The translations under genes were made by a program, and so were the position numbers. The notes below the pieces were generated by a model, which ran no database searches, was not told where the DNA came from, and saw only the letters and a program-made list of their open reading frames with translations. From assembly GCF_000185965.1 (NCBI RefSeq), contig NC_014924.1, positions 2,418,001-2,482,000 of the forward strand: DNA of 64,000 nucleotides, read 5' to 3'. Each line of letters starts with the position of its first letter. Position 1 is the first letter of the stretch. Source of the stretch: Pseudoxanthomonas suwonensis 11-1 (GTDB taxonomy: Bacteria > Pseudomonadota > Gammaproteobacteria > Xanthomonadales > Xanthomonadaceae). Shown piece after piece: positions 1 to 3,350 of the stretch.

Positions 1-1702
1 CAGAGCTCAAGCAGTGGAACTTGAAGCTGGAGGCGCTGCAAGAAACGCCAGCGACCCGATTGGCGTGGTCCACCAATGCCGTGGCGCACGCAGGGCACCG
101 GTCAACTAGGAACGGGTTTCTCGCTTCTGAGTTGCCGAGATCCCATTGCTCGAGTAGTTCCTCGGCATTGCTGAATTTGTTTGGGGTTAGGCTCTGCCCC
201 ACCCAGAGCCCGACGCTGAACGGGCGCCGCCCGAGTAGCTCGGGGGAAGACCTCCTGAGGAGTTCCAAGCTACACGCCAACATCCCGGTGCGTTGGAACT
301 GCTGGGTCGTCAGCATGCGCAGGGTGTACCGGCTCAGCACGCCCGTGCCCGCATCCACGCCCCCGCTGACCATGCGGCGGCGCAAGAGCTCGAATGCCGC
401 CACGAGCAAGTACGCCTCGGTCTTGCCACCGCCCGTGGGGAACCAGATGACGTCCACCACCTCCCGCTCGGTGCACGCTTCGTCCACCAGCGAGCGAATA
501 GTGCCAAGGAAGAAGGCAATCTGGAACGGTCGCCACTTGAACCCAAGCCCGCGGCCGAGCTCGGGCGCAGCCCGTGCTATTGAAGGTGGGTAGGGCCCGC
601 CCAGTCCGGCCTCCGCCATCTGCCTCTGCCAGAGCATTGCGCGGTTTGCGAGCTGGAAGACCTTGAAGGTCGCATCGTCCGCAAGCGACTCGACGCCCTC
701 GCGCATGCGCTTGCACCAGTCGCGGCACCGCTTCGCGAGCTTGATGCCAGCCTCAGCACCCGCGGTCCTCGCACCGTCTTCTTCTTCGTTCACCCAAGCC
801 TCGAAGGCTTCAACCAAGCCCTGGAGGACACGTTGGACCTCAGCGCGTTCCGGATGGAAGGCGAGGAACTCCACGTCGCTGTAGCGCGGGTCCAGCGGGT
901 TCGAGACGCGAATCTCGAACGTCGCCGAGCGCACTTCGCAGGAGGGAAGGAAGTCAGCCCAGACCCTCCTGCAGGGCAGCTGCCCGGCGCCCCACATAGC
1001 CGCCGCGCCATGCCCCCTCGCGAACGGGGGCGACTCCCTGTAGAGGTGCCGCAACTCCGCCTCCTCCTGGCCGAGGGCCGAGGGCGATTCCGGCTGCGGA
1101 TAAGGGAGGATTTCCCCATCATGGGCCTCGACGCTTAGGAGGCATTGAAAGAGAAGGGAAGCCGGGTCCAGGGTCTTGGCGGGCTCATTGGCGTTCACCA
1201 GCGTGACGGTTACAAGCTTTCGTCCCTCGCCCCATGGCCGGCAGTTCAAGTAGAGCCAACCGCGCCCGTCTAGGATGCCCTTCTTGCTCACTCCGTCGGA
1301 AAGGGTGAGCGGGATGTCCTCCCGCGGAAGTTGCTTGCGGCGCCACTTCGACTTGTCTCGCCGGGAAGACGAGCCGCCATCCGTCCGCTCATAGATGCCC
1401 GCGGACACCGTGGCGACGAGCATTGCGTCGGCAGGCACCAGGAAGCTCAATCCGACCGAGGACGGCATCGCACGCCGACTGGAATCTTGCGACTCATCGC
1501 CCTCACCGCCTGCCGTCCTCGTCCCCTCTTCTGTTCCATCCTCGGCGAGCTCGATCTCGCCCTGGCGGGGGAATAGCATCCCCATCATGTAGCGAAGGAG
1601 CGGGGTTCCTTCGACGTCCTCGTCGTCCCCTTGCATGGGGCCAATGAGGACACCCCTCACGTACTCCGCGAACTGCGCGCGAGCCTTGACTAGTTCTTCC
1701 AT
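1..1702 (-). CDS. DrmA-like DISARM helicase, N-terminal part (runs off window)
   Basis: An open frame without a stop runs from the ATG at 1702 to the window edge, giving 567 residues of a longer protein. It carries a P-loop FPTGGGKTEAY near residues 420-430, preceded by WRPFQIAFFLG, then RYTLRMLTTQQFQRT near 458-472 and a zinc-type CPAC pair at about 536/539. Near the N-terminus it has VLIGPMQGDDE and a PSSVGLSFLVPADA segment. From memory this combination is typical of DrmA, the DEAD-type helicase of DISARM phage defence, whose members usually exceed 1,000 residues. The start lies 4 bases after the stop of the NERD-helicase gene, so the two are almost certainly co-transcribed. Base composition is poorer in GC than in the housekeeping genes, consistent with acquired DNA. 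Family call is fairly firm; membership of a complete DISARM system cannot be judged from this window. Confidence 0.8.
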   Translation of the reverse strand, partial: MEELVKARAQFAEYVRGVLIGPMQGDDEDVEGTPLLRYMMGMLFPRQGEIELAEDGTEEGTRTAGGEGDESQDSSRRAMPSSVGLSFLVPADAMLVATVSAGIYERTDGGSSSRRDKSKWRRKQLPREDIPLTLSDGVSKKGILDGRGWLYLNCRPWGEGRKLVTVTLVNANEPAKTLDPASLLFQCLLSVEAHDGEILPYPQPESPSALGQEEAELRHLYRESPPFARGHGAAAMWGAGQLPCRRVWADFLPSCEVRSATFEIRVSNPLDPRYSDVEFLAFHPERAEVQRVLQGLVEAFEAWVNEEEDGARTAGAEAGIKLAKRCRDWCKRMREGVESLADDATFKVFQLANRAMLWQRQMAEAGLGGPYPPSIARAAPELGRGLGFKWRPFQIAFFLGTIRSLVDEACTEREVVDVIWFPTGGGKTEAYLLVAAFELLRRRMVSGGVDAGTGVLSRYTLRMLTTQQFQRTGMLACSLELLRRSSPELLGRRPFSVGLWVGQSLTPNKFSNAEELLEQWDLGNSEARNPFLVDRCPACATALVDHANRVAGVSCSASSFKFHCLSS

Positions 1703-1706
1703 GGTT

Positions 1707-3350
1707 TCATCCCAATGACGCCAGTAGCGACGCCTCGACCTTAGCTTTCAATCGCTCCATTACCCGGGGCGGCGCGACCACTGTCAGGGCAAAGTTCGCC
1801 CTGGTAATCGCCAGGTAGAACAACTTCGATAGCTCCAGGTCTCCCCCTTCGAAGGACGGGACGCAAAGCACTAGGAACGGGGATTCAAGGCCTCTGAACT
1901 CGTCTACGTCGCAGTAGCGGACGATGTTTGGCGGGGCGGGCACCTCCCACCAAAGCGCCACGCTGAATCCGCCGACCAAGCCGGCACGACGTGATATTTC
2001 CGCGGCATCGGAGCCTGGCGCGATGATGCAAATCTCGGAAGCTGGGATCCCCTGCGAGATCCAATCACGCACCTGAATTCCGACGACCCTAGCGAATGCC
2101 CCCGTATCGCCGCCTACCTCCTCGGTCTTTGGTGGCAGTCCCCGTCCCTTCGTGAGCGCGTGGCCAATCTGAACACCAGATGCAAGTTCGGCGAACTGGA
2201 CTATTTCCGGGGTGTTTCGGCAGTTCTTCCTGAGCTTCGGCTGGACGGACGAAAGTACGCGGAGTTCATCTAGCGCGACCCGGGCCACTTCGGGATCAAT
2301 GGTCAGCTGATAATTGGGATCCCCAAACCAAGCCCAACGCCCGTTGCGCAGGCCGCCCCTCACGCACTTATCGAGCATCGCCATCCGCTCGGGATCCAGT
2401 GCCTGTTGTCCCTCGTCTATTACCAATAGGTCGGCGGCAGGCCTATGGTCGGCATGCATGGCCTCAAGCTGTGGCAGCGAAACCACCCTCGTGGTGTCCT
2501 TAAGTGTCTCGCCTATCGTCCTCGCCAGATTGTCTGTCCCGCAGAGCATGAGGGCGTCAGAACCTTCGGCCCTGGCGCGCCTGAAGAGCTCCGTGGCCAG
2601 CAGTGTCTTACCGCATCCGGCCGGCGCCATGCAGAGGATTCGGCTGGCGCCCTCCCAAAGGTCCAGCGCCTCGTATTGCTCCTCCGTAAGCTCGACGAGT
2701 TCATTGATTGTCTGCTCGCGTGAGAGCGCGAGGGGCTTGACCTTGTCGAACTCCGGCCTGAGGGTCTTGACGAGCCGCTCGACGTCCCATGGAGCGATCT
2801 CCCGCTTCGCCCCACTCTTGTCCTGCCAGTGCTTCGCCACCCGCTTTAGGAAACGCTCGAACGCCCCCGGACTGGCGACGTCCTCCCGGGTCCCCGTTAG
2901 CTCATCCGGCAGTTCGGGTGTACCTAGCAAGCCATCTAGCTCCTTTCGCCCCGCTCCGGCTAGCACCACGCAGAACCCTGACGGCACCGAGGTGTCGAAG
3001 CCTCTCCCCATGGCGTCTTCGACATAGTTCCGGATCAGGGAAAAATACGCATCCTTGGCCTGTACAACTGGGGACTTGGACCGCTTGACCACCCTTCCAA
3101 GGCGATCCTCATAGATCCAGCACCCGTTAGCGCACGAGACATCGCCACCCTTGACCTCGATGGCTAGCAAGCCGCGAGGCCCTATTACCAAGAAGTCGAT
3201 TTCGCCCCACCGCTGGTAAAGGTGAGCCGGGAGATTGAGGCTATTCAACGCGCGCGCGCCTTGGCCCCAGTCGACCCCACGAAGTAGCTTGAGGACGAGC
3301 CTTTCCGATCCAGTCGAATCCGGATGCGGCATGTTCGGTATTACCTGCAC
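1707..3350 (-). CDS. NERD nuclease-domain / superfamily 1 DNA helicase fusion
   Basis: The protein is about 547 residues. An N-terminal NERD domain (nuclease-related, restriction-endonuclease fold) shows GEIDFLVI near residues 49-56 and EVKGG near 65-69, matching the D...ExK pattern. A UvrD/Rep-like helicase follows: Walker A APAGCGKT at about 242-249, Walker B VIDEGQQ at about 310-316, a motif-IV-like KNCRNTPEI, and a C-terminal motif-VI-like FYLAITRAN. I chose a GTG start because NERD proteins often begin with a short segment ending in IP(N/P) just before this point, and an AGGGG stretch lies upstream; ATG at 3332 is an alternative. It is the first gene of a two-gene unit with the DrmA-like helicase, 4 bases apart. 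It probably acts on DNA in phage defence. Role is inferred from domains and neighbour; I do not recall this domain architecture as a standard DISARM subunit. Confidence 0.8.
   Translation of the reverse strand: MQVIPNMPHPDSTGSERLVLKLLRGVDWGQGARALNSLNLPAHLYQRWGEIDFLVIGPRGLLAIEVKGGDVSCANGCWIYEDRLGRVVKRSKSPVVQAKDAYFSLIRNYVEDAMGRGFDTSVPSGFCVVLAGAGRKELDGLLGTPELPDELTGTREDVASPGAFERFLKRVAKHWQDKSGAKREIAPWDVERLVKTLRPEFDKVKPLALSREQTINELVELTEEQYEALDLWEGASRILCMAPAGCGKTLLATELFRRARAEGSDALMLCGTDNLARTIGETLKDTTRVVSLPQLEAMHADHRPAADLLVIDEGQQALDPERMAMLDKCVRGGLRNGRWAWFGDPNYQLTIDPEVARVALDELRVLSSVQPKLRKNCRNTPEIVQFAELASGVQIGHALTKGRGLPPKTEEVGGDTGAFARVVGIQVRDWISQGIPASEICIIAPGSDAAEISRRAGLVGGFSVALWWEVPAPPNIVRYCDVDEFRGLESPFLVLCVPSFEGGDLELSKLFYLAITRANFALTVVAPPRVMERLKAKVEASLLASLG

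Follow-up and report, generated by a model that had tools for sequence, protein, structure and literature searches.

A DISARM-like operon with a NERD nuclease-helicase and no DrmC match in Pseudoxanthomonas suwonensis 11-1

What kind of system opens with a NERD nuclease joined to a superfamily 1 (SF1) helicase, continues with a DrmA-type helicase and carries no recognizable DrmC? The question arises at one end of a 64,000-nucleotide stretch of Pseudoxanthomonas suwonensis 11-1 (the window; G000:C1:2418001-2482000, base 1 being 2418001, where G000 is the 3.42-Mb genome, held in one contig). A sequence-only reading had placed the NERD-SF1 helicase 4 bases ahead of the DrmA-type helicase and had taken the operon to run on past the window. 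Both points hold: the two genes lie on the minus strand with a gap of 4, and when the flanking genome was read beyond the window edge to recover the remaining operon genes, it yielded a DrmB gene, a second SF1 helicase and a fifth protein (H5). In that order the five genes are spaced by 4, 1, 9 and -20 bases. We favour, at a probability of about 0.68, the reading that they encode a DISARM-like anti-phage system in which DrmA and DrmB work with a NERD nuclease-helicase effector in place of DrmC.

The likeness to DISARM begins with DrmA and DrmB. The PADLOC DrmA model matches the window's DrmA at E 9.3e-185 (613.9 bits), and the motifs by which the gene had been recognized (FPTGGGKTEAY, RYTLRMLTTQQF and CPAC) are all there as quoted. 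The protein matches the solved Serratia DrmA (7s9v_A) at E 2.6e-120 from chain residue 228 onward, and at 1042 residues it falls short of the 1325 residues of the 7s9v chain. Their alignment ends at residue 1282, and the proposed methylation sensor of Serratia DrmA is V1296; a look for the trigger loop turned up no more than an acidic stretch, 10 of 36 residues, ahead of the PSSVG motif. The next gene, where a DUF1998 protein was to be looked for, is DrmB: it scores 402.8 bits against the NCBIfam DrmB_fam cut-off of 240, matches 7s9v_B at E 1e-53 and has a Pfam MZB domain (36.5 bits). By homology, then, the operon has the DISARM features of a DrmA, under one NCBIfam cut-off, and a DrmB (DUF1998/MZB) in a gene of its own.

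The NERD domain of the first protein is matched by Pfam at 33.5 bits (cut-off 22.1); the SF1-helicase Pfam matches of the same protein fall under their cut-offs. Its homologues begin near residue 65 of the 609-residue open reading frame (ORF), which puts the likely true start near window position 3344, close to the gene end given in the sequence-only reading. The nuclease motif is EIDFLVIGPRGLLAIEVK, and residues E112, D114, E127 and K129, numbered on the 609-residue ORF, are invariant in the alignment. Among the 45 NERD-helicases collected below, a pattern search found the motif in 44, and visual inspection recognized it in the 45th (L070); because all 45 keep it, the nuclease is probably active, a prediction from motif conservation. 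A second NERD-domain match in the same genome lies at C1:3341641-3341922, in an open frame of 1113 residues.

The genes were then followed across other genomes. GTDB species genomes were scanned with a DrmA alignment, which confirmed at least 587 relatives; the best 80 loci were kept (59 with full flanks, 21 with shorter ones), and profiles made from the first loci were run on their ORFs. The NERD-helicase is in the operon in 45 of the 80, across many phyla, so its adjacency to DrmA is by no means unique to this genome. It is the component next upstream of drmA in 32 loci and lies downstream in 13. In Pseudoxanthomonas' class NERD matches occur in 77 of 143 genomes, with one to three per genome; since they are this sparse and 45 of 80 loci share an operon, the pairing with DrmA is not a matter of chance. 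The other components are a compact SF1 helicase (31 of 80), a UvrD helicase (18), a DrmE-like gene (14) and H5 (11), and at least one SF1-class helicase is found in 68 loci. The full-flank loci give 32 NERD-helicases, 23 SF1 helicases, 14 UvrD helicases, 10 DrmE-like genes, 8 H5 genes and 51 loci with any SF1-class helicase.

All 11 loci with H5 also have the NERD-helicase and the SF1 helicase. Six have the order NERD-DrmA-DrmB-SF1-H5, as in the window, and five have DrmA-DrmB-SF1-H5-NERD; that the NERD gene has moved to the other end while the set was kept argues that the five genes work together. On plasmid P4 of Deinococcus gobiensis the same five kinds of gene follow one another as they do here, and genes for Dcm, Vsr and DUF2357 are close by. 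A search by H5 alone in 274 genomes of the class matched three: G000, G140 and G223. The G140 match (E 1e-5; L158, G140:C1:177000-192000) belongs to a whole NERD-DrmA-DrmB-SF1-H5 set, and 26 bases ahead of that set a Dcm gene reads in the same direction; these six genes might form an operon with a methyltransferase inside it. The G223 match is probably due to chance, because no component profile matches in 14 kb. No plasmid record was matched by the H5 sequence search; with 3 of 274 genomes and no plasmid record, the family is too diverged for such sequence searches.

Within the order, DrmA is rare, matching in 7 of 200 genomes at E 1e-20 with G000 included. Four of the six other loci were examined (G289, G375, G299 and G295), the matches of G324 and G435 being weak. 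G289 carries all five genes and, in tandem with them, a further DrmAB operon, UvrD-DrmA-DrmB. The permuted set is found in G375 and, in pieces divided between two contigs, in G299, and G295 has class-1 DISARM genes including DrmC. On the G289 contig (L120, G289:C4:282000-301000) UvrD-DrmA-DrmB comes first and NERD-DrmA-DrmB-SF1-H5 follows on one strand.

A tree was also made of 99 DrmA proteins. It was a quick IQ-TREE run with support from the Shimodaira-Hasegawa approximate likelihood ratio test (SH-aLRT) only, and the program warned of uneven letter composition and of one long branch (L020). The window's DrmA groups with that of Pseudomonas sp. BN102 (63% identity, support 100) and with that of an Acidobacteria metagenome-assembled genome (100), and both of those loci have the window's five-gene order. 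All five DrmA-DrmB-SF1-H5-NERD loci fall together (100), and the six plasmid class-1 DISARM DrmA proteins take their own side of a branch (99). Eleven DrmA-DrmB-SF1 loci, from ten GTDB Streptomycetaceae genomes and one Streptomyces plasmid, also group together. Gene-order labels change 31 times on the tree against a mean of 76.3 when shuffled, and none of 200 shuffles was as low.

DrmC was looked for by profile. The profile was seeded with four class-1 DrmC proteins, canonical class-2 DrmC not being among them, and at E 1e-3 it matched in none of 95 loci (80 GTDB, 14 plasmid and the window). It is positive in six independent loci: a same-order genome outside the seed (L123, 230 bits, confirmed as PLDc_2) and five of 20 viral-contig loci (L141, L144, L147, L150 and L153). 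None of these six has a NERD-helicase match, and the viral-contig loci with a NERD-helicase in the operon (L139, L140 and L143) have no DrmC match; nor has L156, whose NERD-helicase is on the opposite strand. Small ORFs downstream of drmB (170-420 residues, at most two per locus) were also scanned; 84 were selected, one fell out because of a faulty coordinate, and the other 83 were run together with two DrmC controls (L123 and L102). The Pfam PLDc_2 family matched 3 of these 85, at least one of them among the 83 non-control ORFs, and a simple HKD pattern occurs in one ORF in the 95 loci (L085).

Several observations weigh against this reading. The window's DrmA scores 798.6 bits with the NCBIfam model DISARM_DrmAS, below the equivalog cut-off of 950. 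The 80 loci are relatives of the window's DrmA by construction, so that counts among them are biased, and 35 of them have no NERD-helicase. Two Photobacterium plasmids and the viral contig L148 carry DrmA-DrmB-SF1-H5 with no NERD gene in the examined stretch. In the order, 31 of 200 genomes (apparently the same draw as for DrmA) match the NERD-helicase at E 1e-20, 20 of the 35 matches being to the helicase part alone. It reaches at least 270 bits in seven same-order genomes; four of these have DrmA (G000, G289, G375 and G299) and three (G309, G379 and G436) have a strong NERD-helicase with no DrmA match. In G309 the NERD-helicase overlaps a DruE1-like helicase by 4 bases (PADLOC 1473.8 bits), and in G436 it overlaps a TmtA-like Sacsin/NOV-domain gene by 20 bases (2297.1 bits). 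These two loci (L136 and L135, respectively) have no DrmB match, and the DrmA profile gives 26 bits on the DruE1-like protein only. The G379 copies sit at contig ends. The NERD-helicase is thus portable, teaming up with a number of large motor or sensor proteins; this agrees with a role as effector, yet it also shows that the gene is not confined to DISARM.

A rival reading is that the operon may hold two adjacent, independent modules: a minimal DrmAB and, carried beside it, a NERD-helicase gene (Nhi-like or DRT-like) that gives defence autonomously. Such a gene would explain the DruE1-like and TmtA-like partners and the three DrmA-DrmB-SF1-H5 loci, and the closest PADLOC models of the window's NERD-helicase are RTasNERD-Hel (60.2 bits) and, weakly, Nhi (24.4), with AbiO at 21.8, all of them weak to moderate matches. 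The 4-base spacing argues the other way, as do the 45 loci with their many phyla and two gene orders, and the NERD-helicase is present in all 11 H5 loci among the 80 and in G140, a genome found by H5 alone. We consider separate modules unlikely.

What H5 contributes was approached through its fold. The window's H5 has no match in Pfam, PADLOC or NCBIfam. The window-type and permuted-type proteins are joined by hhalign (probability 96.9%, E 1.9e-10, window-type columns 12-375), and AlphaFold models were made for two homologues, L022 and L069, from alignments of 11 and 7 sequences. For L069 (mean predicted local distance difference test score, pLDDT, of 65; predicted template modelling score, pTM, of 0.58) the first seven Foldseek places in the PDB are all DarT, at E 2.7e-4 to 1.1e-2 and probability 1.00, four of them below E 0.001. 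The template modelling score (TM-score) by target length is 0.45-0.55, and 0.30 for a 376-residue chain. For L022 (mean pLDDT 53) the top match is ARH3 (E 6.4e-3), DarT is at rank 12 (probability 0.98) and none is below E 0.001. The resemblance lies in a predicted N-terminal domain of the H5 homologue, which is joined to a large helical region. In sequence, Pfam PF22546 (2CompART) gives 25.4 bits in L060, under its curated cut-off of 27, and 15.9 bits in L121; it has no match in the 16 other H5 members or candidates scanned, among which L031 is a doubtful member. Of 17 aligned members, 14, the window's among them, share a glutamate located on a predicted strand, and the first-strand TN..NL pattern of the permuted-type proteins is replaced in the window's protein. 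These models suggest that the H5 family likely has a DarT-like ADP-ribosyltransferase fold, with an enzymatic activity that is putative.

Other relationships of H5 were tried and rejected. By hhalign, DrmE reaches a probability of at most 0.4% (the DrmE-like genes, PF24957, are another protein, found upstream of drmA elsewhere), and NERD, SF1, UvrD, DrmC and Dcm reach at most 0.1%. ARH3, an ADP-ribosylhydrolase, is on top for the weaker L022 model only and is outside the 50 matches listed for L069, a weak hint. The H5 profile gave three matches among PDB sequences, at E 0.05 to 0.68, none of them related; a structure search of viral models with an H5 homologue gave one match under 0.001, which is nameless; and a literature search on 2CompART gave nothing related among the papers listed.

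It could be, then, that H5 is the real effector: it would ADP-ribosylate DNA as DarT does, the helicases would expose single strands, and the NERD-helicase would repair or remove modified host DNA. The DarT places of both models and the 2CompART score in L060 are consistent with this, and on an Azospirillum plasmid (L015:15069-15671) a separate DarT gene (PF14487, 43.9 bits) directly follows UvrD-DrmA-DrmB-NERD-helicase; a search with this DarT found no second copy in the loci collected by then. The models, though, are of modest confidence and come from homologues, the 2CompART score is under its cut-off while the window's own H5 has no family match, the active-site residues are putative, and H5 is present in only 11 of 80 loci. 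We judge this quite unlikely.

The surroundings of the operon point to defence. A Vsr-Dcm-MvaI/BcnI restriction cassette adjoins it and is convergent with it. Dcm or Vsr is in the examined flanks of 43 of the 80 loci: 33 of the 45 with a NERD-helicase and 10 of the 35 without (Fisher p 1e-4; 25 of 32 and 10 of 27 with full flanks, p 0.003; relatedness ignored). Counted alone, Vsr occurs at 20 of the 59 loci with full flanks, against a background, from other taxa, of 24 matches in 143 class genomes, or about 0.1% per 23 kb if a mean genome of 2.8 Mb is assumed. In the same genus, G382 has the two flanks 3.9 kb apart (16.4 kb in G000), and G012 (L133, G012:C13) has HsdM, HsdS, a GmrSD-like gene and HsdR between the purA side and the match to G000 2407012-2407629; another left-flank piece of G012 is on a different contig. 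The chromosomal site next to purA is thus a defence hotspot, with Type I restriction-modification (R-M) genes in G012. The G+C fraction of the island is 0.56-0.65, against 0.68-0.72 to its left.

This context bears on whether DrmAB and the SF1 helicases are instead a DNA-repair or anti-plasmid system following MrfAB-like logic. DrmA is a member of the YprA/MrfA helicase family, according to the consulted part of Bell et al. (PMC12458937), and DrmB has an MZB domain. That the same site holds Type I R-M genes in a same-genus genome, that DrmA is so rare in the order and that R-M genes are frequent neighbours all speak for defence, and we regard a repair role as very unlikely.

In the favoured, DISARM-like reading the parts would act as follows. 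DrmA and DrmB would form a DNA-loading motor, as in DISARM, and would engage phage DNA, as it enters or replicates, at single-stranded 5' ends. The NERD nuclease (PD-(D/E)xK), with its SF1 helicase, would act as effector, unwinding this DNA and cutting it in place of the phospholipase-type nuclease DrmC, and the second SF1 helicase would help it. H5 may mark or block DNA, or may be a non-catalytic adaptor that binds nucleic acid or nicotinamide adenine dinucleotide (NAD). DrmAB would sense the structure of the DNA and so tell self from non-self, perhaps aided by 5-methylcytosine from the neighbouring R-M methyltransferase. We infer each of these biochemical steps, and the defence activity itself. 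More tentatively, and on balance doubtfully, there may be a widespread DrmC-less DISARM-like branch with a NERD effector, of which one sub-branch, the window's, adds a DarT-like-fold protein, with DNA ADP-ribosylation and 5-methylcytosine from the neighbouring R-M genes marking or blocking DNA.

The interest of such a system lies in the cutting step. In the consulted part of Bravo et al., DrmAB is the DNA-loading motor of DISARM and the nuclease is left open; most simply read, the NERD-helicase encoded alongside would do the cutting in this branch. It accompanies DrmAB in 45 of 80 loci and may show how DISARM-like systems without DrmC cut DNA. H5, if active, would link DISARM-like machines to DNA ADP-ribosylation.

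How does the operon compare with described systems? It shares with DISARM the separate, adjacent drmA and drmB genes homologous to the solved DrmAB, and an R-M neighbourhood. It differs in that no DrmC, DrmD, DrmMI or DrmE match was found in it, and no methyltransferase within the five genes by Pfam, PADLOC or NCBIfam; it has the NERD-SF1 helicase, the second SF1 helicase and H5 instead. Of the DrmB, DrmC and methyltransferase genes that the sequence-only reading had proposed to look for downstream, only DrmB turned up in the operon. The nearest methyltransferase is the adjoining, convergent 5-methylcytosine enzyme, which scores 243.1 bits with PADLOC MTase_II and 150.7 bits with DrmMII. With DrmA and DrmB present, DrmC and the class markers not found and the methyltransferase only a neighbour, the system is DISARM-like but neither class-1 nor class-2 DISARM by defining features. 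The early caveat that this could be a variant or a distinct helicase-based system was well placed.

With ARMADA, TALON and BRIGADE the operon shares a YprA-family helicase, according to the consulted part of Bell et al. (PMC12458937), where helicase and DUF1998 are typically one protein in those systems; DrmA and DrmB are separate here. The same source gives ARMADA type II a GajB-like UvrD helicase, TALON a NERD nuclease, and ARMADA BrxHII-like and PglX-like genes. Neither a BrxHII-like nor a PglX-like match was found by Pfam, PADLOC or NCBIfam in the five operon proteins and three neighbours, and Pfam gave no match there for the TPR-CSD or TBP of TALON; NERD is present and DUF1998 is separate. 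The NERD-helicase is weakly to moderately like Nhi, AbiO and the RTasNERD-Hel of DRT, and differs from them in being tied to DrmA-DrmB. Likeness to DarTG is confined to the predicted N-terminal fold of the H5 homologue, to which H5 adds the large helical region; the operon has no Pfam match to the DarG macrodomain or DarT, the DarT resemblance being structural only.

According to Bell et al. (PMC12458937) there are many DISARM-like classes that have yet to be characterized, and the abstract and sections 5 and 8 of that paper hold no description of a NERD-helicase DrmAB system. A DISARM-like system next to McrBC genes is mentioned in the consulted part of Bell et al. 2024 (PMC11090510). A literature search found no account of a NERD-helicase DISARM or, judging by titles, of DrmA with an ADP-ribosyltransferase; it covered subscription journals little, and so does not show absence in print. 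Given the features above and the parts of Bell et al. that lack it, the system is a variant of the DISARM-like kind and apparently undescribed.

Table 1. Genes of the five-gene operon and of the adjoining restriction cassette.
Feature	Coordinates	Strand	Size	Basis or remark
NERD nuclease-SF1 (UvrD-like) helicase	window 3536-1707	-	609-residue ORF	Pfam, alignment, motif
DrmA-type SF2 helicase (YprA family)	window 1702 to -1426	-	1042 residues	first 567 codons (1..1702) in window
DrmA-type gene end outside window	G000:C1:2416574	-		
DrmB	G000:C1:2414752-2416572; window -3248 to -1428	-	606 residues	NCBIfam DrmB_fam
SF1 helicase	G000:C1:2413540-2414742; window -4460 to -3258	-	400 residues	UvrD_C_2
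Fifth protein (H5)	G000:C1:2411874-2413559; window -6126 to -4441	-	561 residues	
MvaI/BcnI nuclease	G000:C1:2410270-2411472	+		neighbour, outside window
Dcm (cytosine-5 methyltransferase)	G000:C1:2408840-2410258	+		neighbour, outside window
Vsr	G000:C1:2408103-2408921	+		neighbour, outside window

The second SF1 helicase of Table 1 keeps its helicase motifs among five aligned proteins. Besides the Vsr gene of the cassette, G000 has a second Vsr match at C1:1774435-1774656. To the left of the island (G000:C1 ~2402000-2406300) the peptide PGSECN turns up in the translation of several unrelated ORFs, which may point to an intergenic element that is repeated on that flank.

The collected loci hold other arrangements too. 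DrmE-like (PF24957), NERD-helicase and DrmA-DrmB genes with no DrmC match make up a second recurrent layout with nine rows on the tree, among them L063, L073, L077, L101 and L009. A Rhizobium leguminosarum plasmid (L014) carries a broken copy: DrmA and the NERD-helicase are each split over two ORFs, and DrmB over three. On a Tsukamurella plasmid a RelA/SpoT-domain gene (L013:6741-8135) precedes a UvrD-DrmA-DrmB operon.

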